Positions 38,977 through 53,202 of a stretch of 64,000 nt of DNA are shown in pieces; position 1 is the stretch's first letter; each line of letters starts with the position of its first letter. Position numbers and translations under genes: made by a program. The DNA lies in contig NZ_WACG01000001.1 of the NCBI RefSeq assembly GCF_009193255.1, positions 1,178,001 through 1,242,000 on the forward strand, written 5' to 3'. The notes under the pieces were generated by a model, which was given only the letters and a program-made list of their open reading frames with translations, did not search any database and was not told where the DNA came from. The DNA is from Arthrobacter koreensis. GTDB taxonomy: Bacteria > Actinomycetota > Actinomycetes > Actinomycetales > Micrococcaceae.

Positions 38977-40164
38977 ATGCATCCGACGGACGAGAGTCTG
39001 CGGAGGCTGGACTCCAGCCGGCGCGTGGTGGCGCTTCGTGAAGCGCTGCTGCGTGCCGGCATTTCCATGTCCTACCTCGCCCCCGACTCGGTCAATAACC
39101 CGGCGGTCTTCGACGACCACGTGGACGCAGCCGTGCGCGCCTTCCAGCAGAGCCGCGGCCTGATTGTCGACGGCGTTGCCGGGCCCGACACCCAGCGCGC
39201 GCTGGCCGAGGCGCAGTTCCGTTTTGGGGACCGGGTACTCGCCTTCTCCGAGGATCAGCCTGCGGTACGCGGAGACGACGTCGCGGAGCTGCAGCGCCAC
39301 CTCTCCCACCTGGGTTTCTACTACGGCCACATTGACGGGGAGTTTGGGGTCCGAACCCGCTACGCGGTGGCCGAGCTGCAGGAGAACCTCGGGATTCCCG
39401 GCACCGGTGTCTGCGACGGGGACACGATGACCGCTATGTCACGCGTCAACCGGGCAATTTCACCCAGCCAGGCGTATGCATTGCGCGATTACGAGCGGTT
39501 GGACCGCTCCACGGCAGCGCTGCGCGGACGCACCATCACCCTGAACACCGGCAAGTCCGCGACGCCCTCCGCGCATGTTGCCGAGCGGTTGACCGGAGAG
39601 CCCCTCACCGAACTGCTGGTGGCTACTGACGTGCGGGTACGGGTTGAGCGCATCCTGCGGGAGTTCGGCGCAGAGGTGGTGGAGTTCGACGCCGCTGCTG
39701 CTGCAGAGGGAGCTCCAGGCCGCACACCAAGCCTGAACGTGAACATCCACTGTGACTGGCTGGACCAGCCGGCGGCCTCGGGTATAGCCGCCTACTACTG
39801 GGGGCTTCCCGTCACGGGTGAGCCGCGGTCCCCCATTGGCCAGCGCGCAGCCATCCTCATGATCAAGGAGCTCGCCGCGCGTACCGACATGGCAAGTCTC
39901 GGCGTGCACGCCCGCACGTGGGACACGCTCAAGCTGCCGGGCATCCCTTCCGTGGGAATCGATCTTGGGTACCTCAGCAACTTCCACGACGCACACCGGC
40001 TTGCTGATCCGGTGTTCCGGCAGACGGTCGCGGATTCGATTGTCATCGCCATCCAGCGCCTGTACCTGCTGGAGGAGGAAGACCAGCCCACCGGCACCCT
40101 GGCACTCGATGACGTGAGCCGTTTCAACCCGATGGAAGACCGCCGCCGGGTTTCCGGCCTCTAA
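38977..40164 (+). CDS. CwlM-like protein: degenerate N-acetylmuramoyl-L-alanine amidase
   Basis: 395 residues without signal peptide, hence cytoplasmic. Two peptidoglycan-binding domains (about 15-80 and 95-160) precede an amidase_3 fold (about 185-375). Zinc and catalytic positions are altered: the DPGHGG motif reads NTGKS (190-194), the following metal-binding Glu is missing, the third site keeps a histidine (NIHCD, 256-260), and the catalytic Glu of the VELGFLSN motif is Asp (GIDLGYLSN). In M. tuberculosis the homologue at this place after trxBA, CwlM, activates MurA and has no amidase role. A regulatory function in wall-precursor synthesis is therefore likely. ATG 38977; strong terminator behind. 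Confidence 0.88.
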   Translation: MHPTDESLRRLDSSRRVVALREALLRAGISMSYLAPDSVNNPAVFDDHVDAAVRAFQQSRGLIVDGVAGPDTQRALAEAQFRFGDRVLAFSEDQPAVRGDDVAELQRHLSHLGFYYGHIDGEFGVRTRYAVAELQENLGIPGTGVCDGDTMTAMSRVNRAISPSQAYALRDYERLDRSTAALRGRTITLNTGKSATPSAHVAERLTGEPLTELLVATDVRVRVERILREFGAEVVEFDAAAAAEGAPGRTPSLNVNIHCDWLDQPAASGIAAYYWGLPVTGEPRSPIGQRAAILMIKELAARTDMASLGVHARTWDTLKLPGIPSVGIDLGYLSNFHDAHRLADPVFRQTVADSIVIAIQRLYLLEEEDQPTGTLALDDVSRFNPMEDRRRVSGL

Positions 40165-40175
40165 TAACCCCGTAC

Positions 40176-40224
40176 ATGCCGCGCAGACCAGGATTTGGTC
40201 TGCGCGGCATTGCTCTTTTTGTTG
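40176..40224 (+). terminator. terminator of trxB-trxA-cwlM-like
   Basis: A perfect 15-bp stem (40176-40190 with 40196-40210; arms ATGCCGCGCAGACCA and complement), loop GGATT, followed by TGCTCTTTTTG. A textbook intrinsic terminator 12 bases after the stop. Confidence 0.9.
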
Positions 40225-40430
40225 GGAAACTATTCCGTGTTGTTTCTGCCGTGAAACTACCGGTCTGGGAGCTATTCCGTTCCAAGCACGGCCTCCGACC
40301 ACCGTCACGTTAGCCTTGTGTCCTGGCACTCGCGCCGCCCCGGCATAGTCATCCCGATGCTCGGCCCCCTAGTGGCAACGCGAGAAGCAGCTGCAGCTCT
40401 GAGCTATTCGGGTGAGCTAGGGAGGAAGTT

Positions 40431-41010
40431 ATGGGCAAGGTTGTCCTGTACGGATCCGTTTCGGTTGACGGCTATATATCGAAGAAACAGGACCAGCCAG
40501 GGCCGCTGTCGACTGGCTGACCAACGGCGACGTCGCACTAGGCGCAGATGGTCAGCTTCGGGTTACTCAGTCCTCCTACGATTACACCCATTCGTACTGG
40601 GACCGGATCGGCGTGACGATCGCCGGGCGTCGGGTGTTTGACCTGACGGATGGCTGGGGTGGGGCACCACCATCGGGTGTGGACCACATGGTGATTGTTA
40701 CGCGCAGGCCTCCCCCAGAGGGTTGGGGTCCGCGAGGCTCATTCGTCTTCGCCGACGGTGTTGAGGCAGCCGTTGCCAGGGCCCAAGATCTGGCCCGCGA
40801 TCGGATAGTCGAAGTTGCCGCCGGTGACGTCGGTGGACAGGCATTCGCTGCCGGCTTCGTCGATGAGGTGCGGATGGATATTGCCCCCGTTGCGTTCGGG
40901 GCAGGTCACCGCTTTTTCGGCAGCGTCGACGCTATGCACTCCCTCGGCGATCCCCGGTGGTTACCGGCAAGGGAGTACTCCACGTGCGCTATAACGTTCA
41001 TGCGAGGTAG
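40431..41010 (+). pseudogene. dihydrofolate-reductase-family (RibD C-terminal) gene with two frameshifts
   Basis: GGGAGG before ATG 40431 starts MGKVVLYGSVSVDGYISKK..., the beginning of an actinobacterial RibD-C/DHFR-family protein. Near 40509 one base is missing (GPL then FDWL expected) and the frame meets TGA. The next frame continues well: DWLTNGDVALGADGQLRV..., IAGRRVFDLTDGWGG, then IVEVAAGDVGGQAFAAGFVDEVRMD. Near 40955 a second single-base loss shifts into VVTGKGVLHVRYNV and a TAG at 41008-41010. Joined, the parts cover a full-length protein of about 193 residues. Two separate shifts and the empty DNA behind argue for decay, although sequencing error is possible. Confidence 0.8.
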
Positions 41011-41320
41011 TGGATCAATGCGCAGCGGTGTCGCCCATTCCGGGATGCTCAAATACTCGCACTCACTTGGACAATTACCTACCTGCGCCTCGGTATCTAC
41101 TCAAGCTCGCTGTAGGCACTACGCGAAGAAGCTACGCTATTTAAGCCGGCCGGCGTTGAGATCCTTCTAGTATCGAGCAACCCCGTAGCTGATGCCCAGT
41201 AGATCGCACGGGATTCTCGCGGAGCTCGACGACACTCGGCCCGCGGATGCACTCCTTCGAAAATGCGAGGTGCCAAGCCGTTCCTCGTCAATTCCTGCCG
41301 CCGATTCGGCACCCGCAGGT

Positions 41321-41334
41321 GTTTCACGTGAAAC
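41321..41334. other. parS: parS site 1
   Basis: GTTTCACGTGAAAC, perfect 14-bp core of the bacterial parS consensus; the flank T/G gives one mismatch to the 16-mer. Confidence 0.9.
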
Positions 41335-41967
41335 GCGTACAGTCAGCCCGGTGTCGCAGTTATCACGCGTGGGTCCGTCGTAGACTTCCGAAATGAAAGC
41401 CGTGAGTACCTGTCAGACCCAAACCTCTCCGGGGTTTTCATTACATTCTCATTGTCGATGGTTGTGCTGGCACCCACCTCGTCTGTGAATAGCTCGGTGT
41501 TCTAATCGCCGGCCTTGATGGGTGAGCCGGAGGGGCGTGTTCCGCCCGCATGAAAACAACAAGCACCATTCCTGTGTTTCATCCGCTTACTTTGCGGGAC
41601 GGCAACGTTCAATGGCTCCGGCCCGATTGTCCACCACGGTTAGAACGCGGGACTCACTCGCGCACAGGTTCCATGACAGTCTCCTCGGGATGATGCACGT
41701 AAGGATGCCAGTGACCGTGGGTAAGGCCTACCAACAACTGCATGGAGCCGTGTCGATTCCACGCAATTCCTCCTAACCTGGGCGCTGAAAATACGAGGTC
41801 ACCCTAGGAACCGCCATCTGCTGAGGAACTCCCTCTGTACGCGACTATTGTCAGCAACGGCGTCAAGCTTGCCGCAACCTTGTAGTGCCGGTACAGACGG
41901 CCATGAGGGACTCCCGCCGCATCCCTCGTGCCCCTGCAGCCAGGCCGTGCCGAGGCCGGGACGGGTC

Positions 41968-41981
41968 GTTTCACGTGAAAC
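41968..41981. other. parS: parS site 2
   Basis: Perfect GTTTCACGTGAAAC core, 647 bases from site 1, flanked symmetrically by C and G. Confidence 0.9.
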
Positions 41982-42404
41982 GATGACGACGTTCAGCATG
42001 CTATCTGAGGTGCCAGGGCAACCCACGAGGCTCACGAGTGAGTCGAAAGGCGTGTGACTGGGCCGGAAGCACTCACCGAAGAGCGCACCGACAGGACTAT
42101 GGCGCAACGTCGGATGTTCTCCGCGCATTCGGAGTAGATCCAAAAGTAGCTGCTCTGAAGTAGCTACGCCCATGCGGCGCGGGCTGATCCGGCCCATGGC
42201 ATACCGTGTGGATCTGATGGACCGACGAACTACCTGCGCACGGGCTCATTGTGAGTTGCCGCTTGTTGCGGCCAAAAAACATACGGAGGGTTTGCCACGC
42301 GGACAGAGGCGGCACACGTGGGCGTCGCGGCAGCCGATCTATTTGCACGTCGCCGGCACGGCATGCGACTGCCGCACCCAAGGATCGGCCTGGAACTATT
42401 CGTC

Positions 42405-42418
42405 GTTTCACGTGAAAC
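42405..42418. other. parS: parS site 3
   Basis: Perfect GTTTCACGTGAAAC core, 437 bases from site 2. Confidence 0.9.
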
Positions 42419-42703
42419 CGGGGTCCGCATTCCGACTCAGAACACCGGGCTTTCAACCCGCGCCATTCGTTGGCACCATCCCTGCACCCAATGAGCATCC
42501 TGAGGAACCCAAGTTGTGTGACATAGGAGATATCTATAGCCAAGAGGTGCACTGCAGCTTGCCTAGAGCTCGGACGAGTGGAGCGAGGTTTCTGTACGAA
42601 CTCTCTTGGAAGAATTGGGCGTAGACCTGTCAGCAGCGAATCAATGCTGCTGCATCTCCCCTCACCTCCGGGATCCCGTTCGAAGGACGTGTCGAAATGC
42701 GCC

Positions 42704-42717
42704 GTTGCACGTGAAAC
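42704..42717. other. parS: degenerate parS site 4
   Basis: GTTGCACGTGAAAC differs from the core at one base (T to G at position 4). Binding is likely to be weaker. Confidence 0.6.
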
Positions 42718-42950
42718 GGAACGAGCCCAAGTGAATCGGCTAGGAACTTAGGCGTGTCGTGTCGATCCCGCGAATTAGTCCCATAAACAGGAAATGAGTC
42801 GCAGTAAACGCGGGATCGGTGTGGACATCACTGAGCTGCTCGACATCGCGTGTGCTCCTTTGGGCACGCTCTAGCTGTCGTGTCAGCCCTCAGAGCTTCC
42901 CCTGAGCGGCTTCACACTCACAGGCGCCATGGACGTGCACACGCCTCCCT

Positions 42951-42964
42951 GTTTCACGTGAAAC
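42951..42964. other. parS: parS site 5
   Basis: Perfect core; with flanks it is the full 16-mer TGTTTCACGTGAAACA (42950-42965). Confidence 0.92.
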
Positions 42965-43323
42965 AGTAGGAGCTTCGTAGAGTCCGTTCCAGTTCGAAGC
43001 TAGACGTCAAGCATCAGAACGGAGACATGAAAGAGTTTGAAGGTGCCCCGCACGGAAAGCCGAACCCGGGATAGTCCTTCCCCAAGTGGTTTCGCCTGGG
43101 ACTCAGAGTTCCTGTCTCTCACCATCCAGGAACACATAGCGATTTAGTTGCCATACATTAGATGGTGCGGGCATACCGGCTATACAAGGTCCTTTTGTTC
43201 AGGTTCGTTTCCAGATTCGAGGTCGACGTTCACGTTCGTTGTCCACCGGCGGGCAGTCCTCCACAGTCTGTGCTTCAAATGGTGCGCACTATAGCCTAGC
43301 TCGCTTAGCTCGCGTGACAGACG

Positions 43324-43337
43324 GTTTCACGTGAATC
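43324..43337. other. parS: degenerate parS site 6
   Basis: GTTTCACGTGAATC, one mismatch in the right arm. Confidence 0.6.
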
Positions 43338-43520
43338 GCTGTCAGCGCGTACGGGCAAGGCTTTCAAGAAATCAGGCGTCCCCAAGGTACTTTTGTCTTC
43401 CATACCTTGTGGCACTGTCAACCCAACTTGCAAGGGGGGTGCATGAGGACACCTACAAGGTCTGACACGCCGTGATCCCTTATGCGCGGGTGCGAAAGGT
43501 TATGAAGCTACGACTTACAT

Positions 43521-43534
43521 GTTTCACGTGAAAC
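43521..43534. other. parS: parS site 7
   Basis: Perfect GTTTCACGTGAAAC core, 197 bases from site 6. Confidence 0.9.
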
Positions 43535-43712
43535 TTCCAGACCACTTAAGATACCTCCGCATCGCATGGCGCCCCGTAGTACTCGTACGGCCGGAACATT
43601 GGTAGAGCCTCAGCGGCAGGGCACTGAAGGATTGTCGAATGGGGGTTTTGTTCCTGGCCTTACGGCTGGCGTCGACGTTTCCTGGAAACCGGCGGTTCCG
43701 CACCGACAGAAA

Positions 43713-43746
43713 ATGGGCCGCTGTTTCACGTGAAACAGCGGCCCAT
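43713..43746 (-). terminator. parS: 34-bp palindrome after parB with parS at its centre (site 8)
   Basis: Bases 43713-43729 and 43730-43746 are exact reverse complements, GGGCCGCTG flanking TTCACGTGAA. The central 16-mer is a perfect parS (core 43723-43736). It lies 22 bases after the parB stop, so as RNA it can act as the parB terminator hairpin and as DNA it is a ParB site. Confidence 0.75.
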
Positions 43747-43767
43747 CCAGGTCTTGGTCATGCCACT

Positions 43768-45132
43768 CTATGAAGCAGCGCCCTCTACGGGGTTCAGCAC
43801 TGACATAATGCGATTCAAGTCATCAACGCTCGCGAACTCGATGCTGACCTTACCCTTGCGCGCTCCGAGGGTAATCTTGACGTTCGTGTCCAGGCGGTCG
43901 GACAGTGAGTTTGCCAAGTAGTCCAGCCTCTCATGCCGGGCACCTACCTTCGGCTTGGCTTCCTTCGCCGGACGGCGGATCCCGTCAGACAGCGAGACGA
44001 CTTCCTCCGTGGCCCGAACGGACATTCCTTCTGCTACGATCTTCTGCGCGAGTTTCTCCATCTCGGCAGGATCGTTGAGACCCAGAAGCGCCCGCGCATG
44101 ACCAGCTGACAGTACACCCGCTGCGAGCCTGCGTTGCACCAGCGGAGGGAGCTTCATCAACCGAAGGGTGTTGGATATCTGCGGTCTGGACCGGCCGATA
44201 CGCTCTGCGAGTTCCTCATGGGAGCATTCAAAATCGTCCAGAAGCTGCTGGTACGCGGCAGCCTCTTCGAGCGGATTCAGCTGGCTGCGGTGCAGGTTCT
44301 CCAGCAGGGCGTCACGGAGAAGATCCACGTCCTGGGTAGAGCGGATGATCGCAGGTACCGCGGTGAGGCCGGCCTCTCGGCTGGCACGCCACCTCCGTTC
44401 ACCCATGACGAGTTCGTATGGATGGTCATCGTCGCCCTCAGCGGATGGACGGACGACGATCGGCTGGAGCACTCCAATTTCCCTAATGGAGTGGACCAGT
44501 TCAGACATGTCATCTTCATCAAAGACGCTGCGTGGCTGCTTCCGGTTGGGGTGGATCGAGTCGATCGGCAGCTCCGCGAACCGCGCACCAGGAACCTCCA
44601 TCAACGTTTCACGTGAAACGGTGCCGCCTTCGCCTGCAGGAGGAGTGTCGCCCTCGTCTACAGCAGGACGAGTCTTGTCTTCCGCCGCAGCATCCTGTGC
44701 ACCGGTGACTGCGGCGATGCGGCCGGCATCTGGGTCAGCGTCCTTGGGAGCCCTTCCTGCGGGCTTGGATGCCGCCTTCCGTGCCGCAACCTTCCCGGTG
44801 GGCTGATCGGCCTCCACAGTCGCAGTAGGCGGCGTTTCCAGGGAGCGGTCCGATACGGTTTTACGCCCTGTAGTCCCCGTACGGGTGGAGGAGGACCGCG
44901 TTGCGGGTTTTTTCTTTGCGGGCGTCTGCAACGCCTCTTTGTTGATTCCCGCTCCGCGCCGCGGTCCGCTGGTGCGCGCAGCTCCTGCCTCATCACTAAC
45001 GGAGGTAAAGAACAGATCGACCGGCCGCCCGGCACGTGCAGACTGGCCTGATTCGGTTGCTTCAGCAGGCTCAGCAGCACTGGGGATCAACGCACCCAGA
45101 CCCCGGCCCAAACCACGACGCTTTTCGGTCAT
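43768..45132 (-). CDS. parB: chromosome partitioning protein ParB
   Basis: CTP-dependent DNA clamp that loads at parS and spreads, organising the origin for segregation. 454 residues, longer than usual because of a roughly 150-residue Ala/Thr/Lys-rich linker after the ParA-contact N-terminus (RRGLGRGLGALIP). The N-terminal CTPase domain starts near residue 185 and contains GERRWRA (244-250, box II); the HTH is SHEELAERIGRSRPQISNTLRLM; the dimerisation domain is at the end. Codons 172-176 (VSRET) are a parS site. TAGAAT on the minus strand at 45192-45187 is a possible own promoter inside the 101-base parA-parB gap. Confidence 0.97.
   Translation of the reverse strand: MTEKRRGLGRGLGALIPSAAEPAEATESGQSARAGRPVDLFFTSVSDEAGAARTSGPRRGAGINKEALQTPAKKKPATRSSSTRTGTTGRKTVSDRSLETPPTATVEADQPTGKVAARKAASKPAGRAPKDADPDAGRIAAVTGAQDAAAEDKTRPAVDEGDTPPAGEGGTVSRETLMEVPGARFAELPIDSIHPNRKQPRSVFDEDDMSELVHSIREIGVLQPIVVRPSAEGDDDHPYELVMGERRWRASREAGLTAVPAIIRSTQDVDLLRDALLENLHRSQLNPLEEAAAYQQLLDDFECSHEELAERIGRSRPQISNTLRLMKLPPLVQRRLAAGVLSAGHARALLGLNDPAEMEKLAQKIVAEGMSVRATEEVVSLSDGIRRPAKEAKPKVGARHERLDYLANSLSDRLDTNVKITLGARKGKVSIEFASVDDLNRIMSVLNPVEGAAS
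44606..44619. other. parS: parS site 9, inside parB
   Basis: Perfect GTTTCACGTGAAAC in the linker-coding part of parB, read as Val-Ser-Arg-Glu-Thr (residues 172-176). Confidence 0.9.
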
Positions 45133-45233
45133 GGGTAAGTCCTTCCCTTATGCGCACAGCAAGCGGCATGGATTGATTGTGAATGTATTCTACGGTTGAA
45201 GGCCGCCGGGGCCCGGCAACCCGGAGGGAGTGT

Positions 45234-46373
45234 CTAGACGGATCGCTGGGAGATCTCGGCAGCGGCTTCCAGATAGGACAATGCACCCGTGGATGAGGGG
45301 TCGTACGTCATGACCGTCTGCTGGTAGCTGGGAGCCTCAGAAATGCGCACCGAACGCGGAACAACGGCCGAGAGAACCTGCTGCGGGAAGTGCTCCCGTA
45401 CTTCGGCTGCAACCTGTGCAGCGAGGTTGGTGCGGCCGTCGTACATCGTGAGCAGGATCGTGGAGACAACCAGGTCGGCGTTCAGGTGCTTCTGGATCAT
45501 TTCGATGTTCTTCAGCAGCTGGCTGAGGCCCTCAAGGGCGTAGTACTCACACTGGATGGGAATAAGGACTTCCCTGGCTGCCACGAATGCATTCACCGTC
45601 AACAGGCCGAGGCTCGGCGGGCAGTCAATGAAAATGTAGTCAAGCCGTTCCTCGCCGGCGGCCTTGCGCTCGGCAGCGTACACGTCGATTGCCCGGCGGA
45701 GGCGCTGCTCGCGTGCCACGAGGGAGACCAGCTCGATCTCGGCGCCCGCCAGGTGGATAGTTGCCGGCGCGCAGATCAGATTCTTGATGTCCGGGCACTG
45801 GGCTACAACATTGGCCAGCGGCAGGTCATCGATGAGGACGTCATAGATGCTCTCGACGTCGGCTCGATGGTCAATTCCCAGGGCCGTTGAGGCATTTCCC
45901 TGCGGATCGATATCGATAACCATGACGTTGAGACCAGCCGTCGCCAGCGCCGCAGCAATGTTGACGGTTGTAGTCGTCTTGCCAACGCCGCCTTTCTGAT
46001 TGCTCACCGTCATGATCCGGGTCTCTGCCGGACGTGGCAGCACGCGGCCCATCAGCTTCTCGCGGCGGCGGGTCTCGCTGGCCAGCTCGCGGGCTAGCGG
46101 CGTGCTCTCGTCCATCAGATCCATAACGTCTACCGGCTCGGACGGGAGGACCGCCTGGCCGGCTACACCACCTTCGCTGGTCTCGGATTCAGGCACATCG
46201 GATGCGCCGGCAGACTGTGTTGGAACAGCATGTCCTGTTTCACGTGAAACAGGCAAGTGACTCTCGGGCTTCTCAACCTCTTTAGGTTGTGACCTTGAGA
46301 AAGGCGAGGAGAAGGCAGAGCCGAGCGCAGCAAAGGGGGGAATTCGTTTTGCGGCAGAATCGCGCACACTCAC
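45234..46373 (-). CDS. parA: chromosome partitioning ATPase ParA
   Basis: Deviant Walker ATPase that binds DNA non-specifically and moves ParB-parS complexes. 379 residues: a roughly 115-residue variable N-terminal extension, then the ParA core with KGGVGKTTT (about 127-135), VIDIDPQGNASTALG, and the Walker B-type IFIDCPPSLGLLTVNAF. The extension is rich in Ser, Pro and Glu and codes VSRET (42-46) over a parS site. GTG start at 46373 has only a weak ribosome site; later starts would remove the extension but keep the core, so the exact N-terminus is uncertain. It follows rsmG by 114 bases. Confidence 0.96.
   Translation of the reverse strand: MSVRDSAAKRIPPFAALGSAFSSPFSRSQPKEVEKPESHLPVSRETGHAVPTQSAGASDVPESETSEGGVAGQAVLPSEPVDVMDLMDESTPLARELASETRRREKLMGRVLPRPAETRIMTVSNQKGGVGKTTTTVNIAAALATAGLNVMVIDIDPQGNASTALGIDHRADVESIYDVLIDDLPLANVVAQCPDIKNLICAPATIHLAGAEIELVSLVAREQRLRRAIDVYAAERKAAGEERLDYIFIDCPPSLGLLTVNAFVAAREVLIPIQCEYYALEGLSQLLKNIEMIQKHLNADLVVSTILLTMYDGRTNLAAQVAAEVREHFPQQVLSAVVPRSVRISEAPSYQQTVMTYDPSSTGALSYLEAAAEISQRSV
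46237..46250. other. parS: parS site 10, inside parA
   Basis: Perfect core, full 16-mer TGTTTCACGTGAAACA (46236-46251), in the extension-coding part of parA, read as VSRET (residues 42-46). Confidence 0.92.
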
Positions 46374-52077: not shown

Positions 52078-53202
52078 GTGAAGTTCAGAGTTGAGCGGGA
52101 TGTCCTGGCCGAGGCGGTTACGTGGACAGCGCGGTCCCTCTCCCCCCGCCCGCCGGTTCCTGTGCTTTCCGGCCTGCTGATCAAGGCCGAATCCGGTTCT
52201 CTTAGCATTGCCAGCTTCGACTACGAGATTTCGGCGAGGCTTCAGATCCCGGCGGACATCTCTGAAGAAGGCACCATCCTTGTCTCGGGCCGGCTCCTGG
52301 CAGAAATCTGCCGCAGCCTTCCCTCCGCACCAGTGGATGTGGAAACCGATGGTTCGAAGGTCACGCTTACCTGCCGCAACAGCCGCTTCAACCTGGCAAC
52401 CATGCCGGTCTCGGAATACCCCGAACTGCCGGCACTTCCGGACGTCAGCGGCGTCGTCGACGGTAATGCCTTCGCGCAGGCCGTTTCACAGGTGATTATC
52501 GCCGCGAGCCGCGACGACACCCTGCCGATCCTCACCGGCGTACGGATGGAAATCGAAGATGATCTCATTACCTTCCTTGCCACCGACCGCTACCGGCTCG
52601 CCCTGCGTGAACTCCCGTGGAAGCCGGCAACCCCGGGTATCTCGACTTCCGCACTGGTGAAGGCCAAAACCCTGAACGAAGTCGCAAAGACACTCGGCAG
52701 CGGCGGAGACCTGAACATTGCACTGTCCGGAGACAGCGAACTAATCGGTTTCGAAAGCGGTGGACGCCGCACCACGTCGCTGCTGGTGGACGGGGACTAC
52801 CCCAAGATCCGCTCGCTGTTCCCGGAGAACACCCCGATCCACGCCACCGTGGAAACACATGCGCTGGTGGAAGCCGTGCGCCGCGTTTCGCTTGTTGCTG
52901 AGCGGAACACTCCCGTGCGCCTCGCCTTCACGGACGGACAGGTGACGCTCGACGCCGGTACCGGTGAAGATGCCCAGGCCTCCGAGGCGCTCGAGGCATC
53001 GCTCGTCGGCGACGACATCACCGTTGCCTTCAACCCGCACTACCTCAGCGAAGGCCTGGGTGCCTTCCCGAGCAAGTACGTGCGTTTTTCCTTCACCACC
53101 CCGCCGAAGCCGGCCGTGATCTCCGCGCAGGAAGAGCTCACCGGCGACGACCAGGAAGACTACCGGTACCTGCTGATGCCGGTCCGGCTGCCTAACCAGT
53201 AG
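52078..53202 (+). CDS. dnaN: DNA polymerase III beta subunit (sliding clamp)
   Basis: Ring-shaped dimer that tethers the polymerase. 374 residues, three repeated clamp domains, starting MKFRVERDVLAEAVTWTARSL and ending YRYLLMPVRLPNQ, the typical MPxRL tail. GTG start at 52078; the candidate ribosome site AAAGGCGG is slightly distant. Downstream after 67 bases is gnd. Confidence 0.98.
   Translation: MKFRVERDVLAEAVTWTARSLSPRPPVPVLSGLLIKAESGSLSIASFDYEISARLQIPADISEEGTILVSGRLLAEICRSLPSAPVDVETDGSKVTLTCRNSRFNLATMPVSEYPELPALPDVSGVVDGNAFAQAVSQVIIAASRDDTLPILTGVRMEIEDDLITFLATDRYRLALRELPWKPATPGISTSALVKAKTLNEVAKTLGSGGDLNIALSGDSELIGFESGGRRTTSLLVDGDYPKIRSLFPENTPIHATVETHALVEAVRRVSLVAERNTPVRLAFTDGQVTLDAGTGEDAQASEALEASLVGDDITVAFNPHYLSEGLGAFPSKYVRFSFTTPPKPAVISAQEELTGDDQEDYRYLLMPVRLPNQ

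Follow-up and report, generated by a model that had tools for sequence, protein, structure and literature searches.

Introduction

Clusters of the centromere site parS close to the partition genes are known from unrelated bacteria. In Myxococcus xanthus, 22 parS sites lie in about 3 kb near parAB and are bound by ParB in vitro (excerpts of PMC3899335). In Corynebacterium glutamicum, parS1-10 form one oriC-proximal cluster with nine of the ten sites in intergenic DNA, and recruitment of ParB was shown (excerpts of PMC7083940). An initial inspection of the locus described here, made from the letters alone (hereafter the sequence-only reading), had assumed that parS sites are usually scattered in or between genes; in view of these two clusters this is too general. 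At parS, ParB dimers are loaded as CTP clamps, which then slide along the DNA; bound proteins block them, and recruitment in trans aids the bypass (excerpts of PMC9242446). SMC in turn starts from ParB-parS (excerpts of PMC7083940 and PMC8357415).

Here we analysed a 64-kb stretch (the window) of the 3.55-Mb genome of Arthrobacter koreensis, in which parS sites are arrayed in gene-free DNA beside parB. This region is referred to as the island and the DNA between its parS sites as filler. The island was compared with related loci, which are given with their locus numbers where needed.

Results

A gene-free parS array next to parB

A motif scan for parS (core GTTTCACGTGAAAC) detected ten sites with at most three mismatches to the 16-mer in the 64 kb, compared to 0.14 expected by chance, and none of 100 shuffled sequences reached ten (Table 1). 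The island sites follow each other at distances of 647, 437, 299, 247, 373, 197 and 202 bp. This reproduces the counts and spacings of the sequence-only reading (six perfect and two one-mismatch sites, 200-650 bases apart), and the two further perfect sites that it had placed in parB and parA were also found. All eight perfect copies of the genome are located within 41321-46250, and of the four one-mismatch copies two lie in the island and two elsewhere. The copies in parB and parA precede the conserved domains of both proteins. The VSRET frame is used by all 53 parB copies of parS across the loci, and of 76 copies that precede the parA core by at most 420 bp, 69 lie in the open parA frame.

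The gap between parB and a convergent amidase gene comprises 3,603 bp without a called gene and is the largest of the window. It had been regarded as the interval between trxA and parB, which is incorrect, as the amidase gene sits between trxA and the island. The earlier bounds of 41011-43767 did capture a gene-free island, the limits of which are now set by the alignment of relatives to about 40998-43712. parA and parB adjoin each other beside the island, and dnaA and dnaN are close by. The Pfam domains ParB_N, HTH_ParB and ParB_C (N-terminal, HTH and dimerisation domains) were all detected above the cut-off in ParB. Furthermore, the ParB translation contains a GERR motif, which we count towards a predicted CTP-clamp domain. 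Three sequence characteristics of a ParABS centromere are found together at this locus, namely a 16-bp parS palindrome far above chance frequency, proximity to parAB as well as to dnaA/dnaN, and a ParB with the cognate domains.

No credible gene was found between the outermost island sites. Using a codon model trained on long ORFs, all 14 ORFs of at least 50 amino acids that lie wholly within 41.0-43.77 kb received scores below zero; the longest island ORFs reach 150 amino acids. Pfam scans of nine of these 14 ORFs gave no match, in agreement with the initial impression of about 2.75 kb without a convincing gene. A tenth scanned ORF (40613-41170), which enters from the edge, matched RibD_C weakly, with a score under the curated cut-off. 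The respective RibD-like gene is an intact frame of 192 codons in A. citreus (L001, 12612-13190) and a more decayed trace in L003. It may be speculated that the island expands by swallowing decaying neighbours such as this gene. An Rfam search over the island detected no family above the gathering threshold (best E-values of 0.3-0.59, i.e. noise). A scan for sigma-70-like promoters over 39.9-44.0 kb, a weak test with 1.2 hits expected by chance, found none. The G+C content of the island is 0.571, compared to 0.631 in the other gaps and 0.647 in the rest of the window, and thus below its flanks, as had been observed before.

Table 1 Features of the parS island and its surroundings. Positions refer to the window.
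Feature	Position	Strand	Basis or remark
N-acetylmuramoyl-L-alanine amidase with PG_binding_1, convergent neighbour	38977-40164	+	Pfam
Intrinsic-terminator-like hairpin of the amidase gene, far-side boundary	40176-40210	+	16 pairs, then T run
Broken (frameshifted) RibD/DHFR-family-like gene, far edge of the island	40430-41000	+	weak RibD_C match; comparison with L001 and L003
Gene-free parS array (island)	40998-43712		no ORF with coding signal; unalignable to L001 and L003, both 88% identical to the window across the flanking kilobases
parS, perfect core	41321-41334		motif scan
parS, perfect core	41968-41981		motif scan
parS, perfect core	42405-42418		motif scan
parS-like, one mismatch	42704-42717		motif scan
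parS, perfect core	42951-42964		motif scan
parS-like, one mismatch	43324-43337		motif scan
parS, perfect core	43521-43534		motif scan
34-bp perfect palindrome with parS 43723-43736 at its apex, predicted parB terminator	43713-43746	-	T-rich tail on the parB strand
parS, perfect core, apex of the 34-bp palindrome	43723-43736		motif scan
parB (ParB_N, HTH_ParB, ParB_C)	43768-45132	-	Pfam
parS in parB, read as VSRET	44606-44619	parB on -	motif scan
parA (AAA_31)	45234-46373	-	Pfam
parS in parA, read as VSRET	46237-46250	parA on -	motif scan
dnaA	50098-51516		Pfam
dnaN	52078-53202		Pfam

The parS site nearest to parB forms part of a terminator-like hairpin

The palindrome at the parB end of the island folds with -35.6 kcal/mol (z-score -6.7); two other island sites gave z-scores of 1.0 and -2.2. 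A consensus terminator scan did not list the hairpin at 43713-43746. Across the loci, at least four extra paired bases were present in 47 of 59 cases in which the first parS site lies within 60 bp of the parB stop codon, compared to 19 of 364 other downstream sites; the extended stem is absent at 12 of the 59. The arms vary in sequence yet stay complementary: 86.2% of the cells are paired compared to 48.0% when arms were re-paired between loci, and none of 2,000 re-pairings was as high (68 loci). At least four T within the eight nucleotides after the stem were found for 26 of 46 long stems, compared to three of 46 for the nucleotides before the stem, and such a tail is missing at 20 of the 46. 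The parS site nearest to parB is usually the top of a covarying, terminator-like hairpin of parB, in which the components of an intrinsic terminator, a stable covarying stem and a T-rich tail on the strand of the gene, are found together. As predicted from these features, the hairpin would look like a parB terminator built around parS. Alternatively, the palindrome may have a role as a DNA cruciform. Among titles and opening lines of abstracts on parS and terminators or hairpins, there was no report of a parS site inside a gene terminator. Such a hybrid would join centromere and operon end in one dual-use palindrome. Long perfect palindromic extensions of 7-11 bp per arm were also observed around a few parS sites within arrays, further away from the parB stop (L120, relative position 1239; L027, 1326; L012, 1882; L009, 344).

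The array is conserved in the genus and regularly spaced

All 29 genomes of the genus contain 5-11 perfect parS sites, and each was classed as having, after parB, a gene-free array that comprises four or more sites, which corroborates the earlier suggestion of a dedicated and conserved non-coding parS platform. In 28 of them the array is a single gap starting from parB, and in the remaining one (L069) it is divided in two by one ORF call. The gene following a downstream array is convergent in 34 of 42 cases and codirectional in three, and five arrays run into a contig end. Conserved between species are the presence, the number and the rough spacing of parS sites; conservation of their exact positions was not found except where islands still align.

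The DNA of the island itself is hardly shared with relatives. Over 8.3 kb, the window shares 88% identity with A. citreus (L001) and L003, in alignments that end 61 and 44 bp beyond the parB stop, respectively; the alignment with L001 restarts at position 40997 of the window. An island probe gave short matches at the parB-end palindrome in 12 of the other 28 genus genomes and none in 16. Among 197 sampled genomes of the family (own genome included; two candidates scored per genome where listed), two others matched the island, over 26 and 43 bp. A search for other motifs in 44 pooled islands, left after removal of five near-duplicates, returned enriched k-mers that are mostly GC-rich, the longer ones being restricted to few loci. 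Four loci (L015, L019, L020, L026) carry arrays of approximately 4.6-5.5 kb after parB that consist almost wholly of one-mismatch sites (8-11 each), nearly all of which are GTTCCACGTGAAAC or its complement in the two arrays inspected. Of the 96 one-mismatch sites found downstream of parB in the loci compared, 74 are of this variant.

The spacing was analysed in 42 downstream arrays with a mean of 7.1 sites over 2.36 kb. For this purpose, the near-identical loci L020, L133, L138, L139 and L140 were dropped; arrays had to have at least five sites and were cut wherever a gap exceeded 1,500 bp. The mean coefficient of variation (CV) of the spacing was 0.467 compared to 0.80 for random placement, with none of 2,000 simulations as low, and the mean smallest gap was 166 bp compared to 67 bp; as these loci are kin, the independent cases are fewer than the arrays. 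In 33 of the 42 arrays, spacing tends to grow with distance from parB. Twelve arrays between parA and parB had a CV of 0.628 compared to 0.821 by chance (0.1% of simulations as low). In two loci whose parA-parB gap measures 4.2-4.6 kb (L036, L039), several parS sites are only 34-99 bp apart and one is more than 2 kb away from the others.

Arrays occur at three junctions of the parAB locus

A gene-aware scan of 125 ParB loci, a count that retains near-identical loci, assigned 55 arrays to the region after parB, 12 to the region between parA and parB and four to the region upstream of parA. The second class comprises Yaniella, Enteractinococcus, Citricoccus, Zhihengliuella, Kocuria, Galactobacter and two further records, and the third belongs to other families of the order. 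The 54 loci without an array include all 20 loci from outside the order, together with truncated contigs and short arrays. In loci of the Glutamicibacter and Paeniglutamicibacter type with lower G+C, gene calling produced implausibly long gaps (5-8 kb), and array calls there are therefore uncertain. On a FastTree tree of RsmG, ParA and the ParB core, the array classes need 13 changes compared to a mean of 52 with shuffled labels. This indicates that the arrangement follows the clades and that it arose or changed its place more than once, in several instances.

The filler changes almost beyond recognition between species

Our conclusions on drift are based on every pair (1,378) among 53 loci with an array, recounted without selection. 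With decreasing identity of the parA-parB side (0.99, 0.99, 0.97, 0.95 and 0.94), island identity was 0.96, 0.92, 0.82, 0.73 and 0.70. Pairs with 0.87-0.93 on the parA-parB side were mixed with respect to island alignability, and at 80-87% less than 5% of the island was alignable in 48 of 50 pairs. In the other two, at least half of the island aligns, one of them being L007/L008 with 62% identity. In 12 pairs that had been picked largely for non-aligning islands, other intergenic DNA (27,073 bp) was covered by BLAST matches to 100% and the island (29,760 bp) to 0.1%. A comparison list of 2,485 pairs leaves out pairs that align through the island (L004/L005, L019/L020).

In six pairs chosen as alignable, and with parS sites opposite a gap set aside, the filler differs at 22.6% of 17,472 columns and parS at 1.2% of 642 (eight differences); a few sites were gained or lost opposite gaps. 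Of the earlier expectation that parS sites and their positions are kept while the intervening sequence drifts, the first part is in line with these values, and the exact positions are retained only where the islands align. With parS preserved and the filler changed almost beyond recognition, the island looks like a bacterial centromere that was built for the purpose.

Three close pairs, of which about 165 kb each were compared, allowed us to relate this drift to other DNA. The divergence of the island, of 4-fold sites and of other intergenic DNA was 0.042/0.018/0.010, 0.075/0.023/0.011 and 0.145/0.080/0.040, respectively. The island is consequently 1.8-3.2 times as divergent as 4-fold sites and 3.6-7.0 times as divergent as other intergenic DNA, and splitting the latter by gene orientation gave values close to the unsplit ones. 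It is the most divergent of the long aligned non-coding regions. A few short intergenic regions are about as divergent (maxima of 0.125, 0.073 and 0.158), and others could not be aligned, such as stretches of 669 and 530 bp in the third pair. Island windows of 500 bp rank 2-40 of 326, 1-65 of 316 and 3-22 of 288. Over nine pairs, the ratio of island to 4-fold divergence was 1.3-5.0 and was 1.3 in the closest pair; these nine remained of 12 after the mutual pairs of L042, L043 and L074, where one island has only 35 bp, were dropped. A regional mutation gradient into parB was also considered and rejected, as the 4-fold divergence of parB is not consistently raised.

The ratio of transitions to transversions is 1.17 in the island and 1.23 in other intergenic DNA, and the substitution types match as well. 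With this ordinary spectrum, relaxed constraint suffices as an explanation. In high-GC genomes, 4-fold sites are restrained by codon bias. By our own estimate, relaxed constraint alone would therefore lead to an approximately twofold excess of the island over these sites. In the closest pairs the differences are unevenly distributed along the island, which makes some recombination likely. We read the filler as unconstrained DNA rather than as a proven case of hypermutation.

Discussion

We consider it likely that the island is a dedicated ParB-loading array and the core of the centromere of this chromosome, in which the number and spacing of sites and the absence of obstacles are selected, not the sequence. 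The array lies where parB and the amidase gene converge, approximately 6 kb from dnaA. At its seven to eight sites, roughly 200-650 bp apart, and at those in parB and parA, ParB-CTP clamps would be loaded, and they would slide over the filler to form one compact partition complex, which ParA would pull and from which SMC would be loaded. The parB-proximal end is presumably closed by the parS-terminator hybrid hairpin, which would bar parB transcripts and double as a loading site. Sites at such intervals in obstacle-free DNA could keep a short domain densely loaded and provide a compact entry zone for SMC. Selection would maintain the number of sites at rather even distances and would keep genes out, and the filler would be free to drift.

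The absence of genes would imply the absence of promoters and other site-bound obstacles. The sequence-only reading had suggested that clamps could slide here without meeting transcription. On the F plasmid, ParB was impeded chiefly by site-bound complexes at promoters, and its spreading was not limited by active transcription, although the authors suggest that highly transcribed genes such as an rRNA operon of Vibrio cholerae may interfere (excerpts of PMC6238139). The suggestion is therefore supported in part only; the benefit probably lies in a lack of promoter complexes and further bound obstacles more than in a lack of elongating polymerase. Growth and overall folding of C. glutamicum with a single parS site were near normal (excerpts of PMC7083940). 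Together with the spreading on the F plasmid, this argues against taking the need for a gene-free array for granted. As one site largely suffices for C. glutamicum under laboratory conditions, the advantage may be one of robustness. The 54 of 125 ParB loci classed without an array, a count with truncated contigs and short arrays in it, likewise speak against the platform reading, as do the two of 50 pairs at 80-87% that still align through the island.

The main rival to this platform reading holds that only parS is selected. Silencing or disturbance of genes near a dense ParB-loading zone would lead to their decay, and the gap would end up gene-free and drifting without any benefit from the lack of genes. 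The edge gene of the RibD type, which is broken in the window but intact in L001 and has decayed further in L003, would fit such a process, as would the repression of promoters beside parS3 and parS4 by ParB in Pseudomonas aeruginosa (excerpts of PMC7022226) and an island substitution spectrum equal to that of other intergenic DNA. We nevertheless regard decay as the unlikely explanation, because conserved parB and parA genes coexist with internal parS sites, genes beside parS in Bacillus subtilis are unchanged without Spo0J (excerpts of PMC7022226), and regular spacing as well as three junctions in separate clades would be unexpected from decay alone.

A faster mutation rate of the island than of the rest of the chromosome, for instance through a ParB- or SMC-linked process, appears improbable to us. 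In the three close pairs, the island does diverge more than 4-fold sites and other intergenic DNA, but transition/transversion ratio and substitution types match those of other intergenic DNA, codon bias at 4-fold sites would account for about a twofold excess by our estimate, and recombination blocks may add to it. Still further down the scale, we think it very improbable that the island was imported or is mobile, or that the array of each species was replaced by recombination with foreign DNA. Close pairs are colinear through the island, identity falls smoothly with overall divergence and the substitution spectrum is ordinary, even though differences are uneven along the island in the closest pairs and, short matches aside, a homologue of the filler was found neither in the 28 further genomes of the genus nor among 197 sampled family genomes (own included; two candidates scored per genome where listed). 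A mobile or phage origin was rejected, as searches gave no phage match to the island and the three plasmid records that match the region are confined to the broken RibD-like stretch, with none matching the island proper. That unrecognised genes or non-coding RNAs fill the island is barely credible: despite ORFs of up to 150 amino acids, hidden genes were rejected by the 14 negative codon scores, the nine ORFs without a Pfam match and DNA that, short matches excepted, is unconserved in the genomes searched, and RNAs by Rfam hits that stay at noise level.

Extending the platform reading to the order, we tentatively propose, and hold it slightly less probable than its opposite, that the Micrococcales centromere is a domain set by architecture, not by sequence. 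Such a domain would be promoter-free and bounded by terminators, with a parS-terminator hybrid at its edge; only the number and even spacing of parS would be selected, filler turnover would be almost complete between related species, and the domain would have arisen or moved several times, to positions after parB, between parA and parB and upstream of parA. If true, this would be a prokaryotic parallel to the fast-evolving but functionally constant centromere DNA of eukaryotes, and obstacle-free sliding space would itself be a selected resource. The question addressed is how sliding ParB-CTP clamps handle obstacles in cells, for which the arrays would be a natural experiment: evolution would repeatedly have supplied fairly even loading sites in gene-cleared DNA. 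As related species have matching arrays with unrelated filler, swaps between them could separate the effects of site number, spacing and filler.

Among titles and opening lines of abstracts on parS in Arthrobacter, Micrococcus luteus and Micrococcales, no gene-free array is described. Streptomyces venezuelae resembles the island in having 16-17 ParB-bound parS sites near oriC, but a gene-free block is not mentioned in the excerpts of that report (PMC12511625). The cluster of C. glutamicum shares with the island the actinobacterial host, a 16-bp consensus like that of B. subtilis and the organisation as a single cluster; it differs in that its ten sites extend across 35 kb at 73 kb from oriC, and the excerpts describe no single gene-free block (PMC7083940). 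The M. xanthus cluster is similarly a dense set of parS sites in approximately 3 kb near parAB, but it is about 2.5 times denser, lies 4 kb upstream of parA, has the consensus TGTTCCACGTGGAACG and belongs to an unrelated phylum; the excerpts make no statement on gene content, evenness of spacing or pace of evolution of that stretch (PMC3899335). Dense parS clusters are therefore already known; new are the predicted parS-terminator hairpin and the arrays of Micrococcales at other parA/parB junctions.
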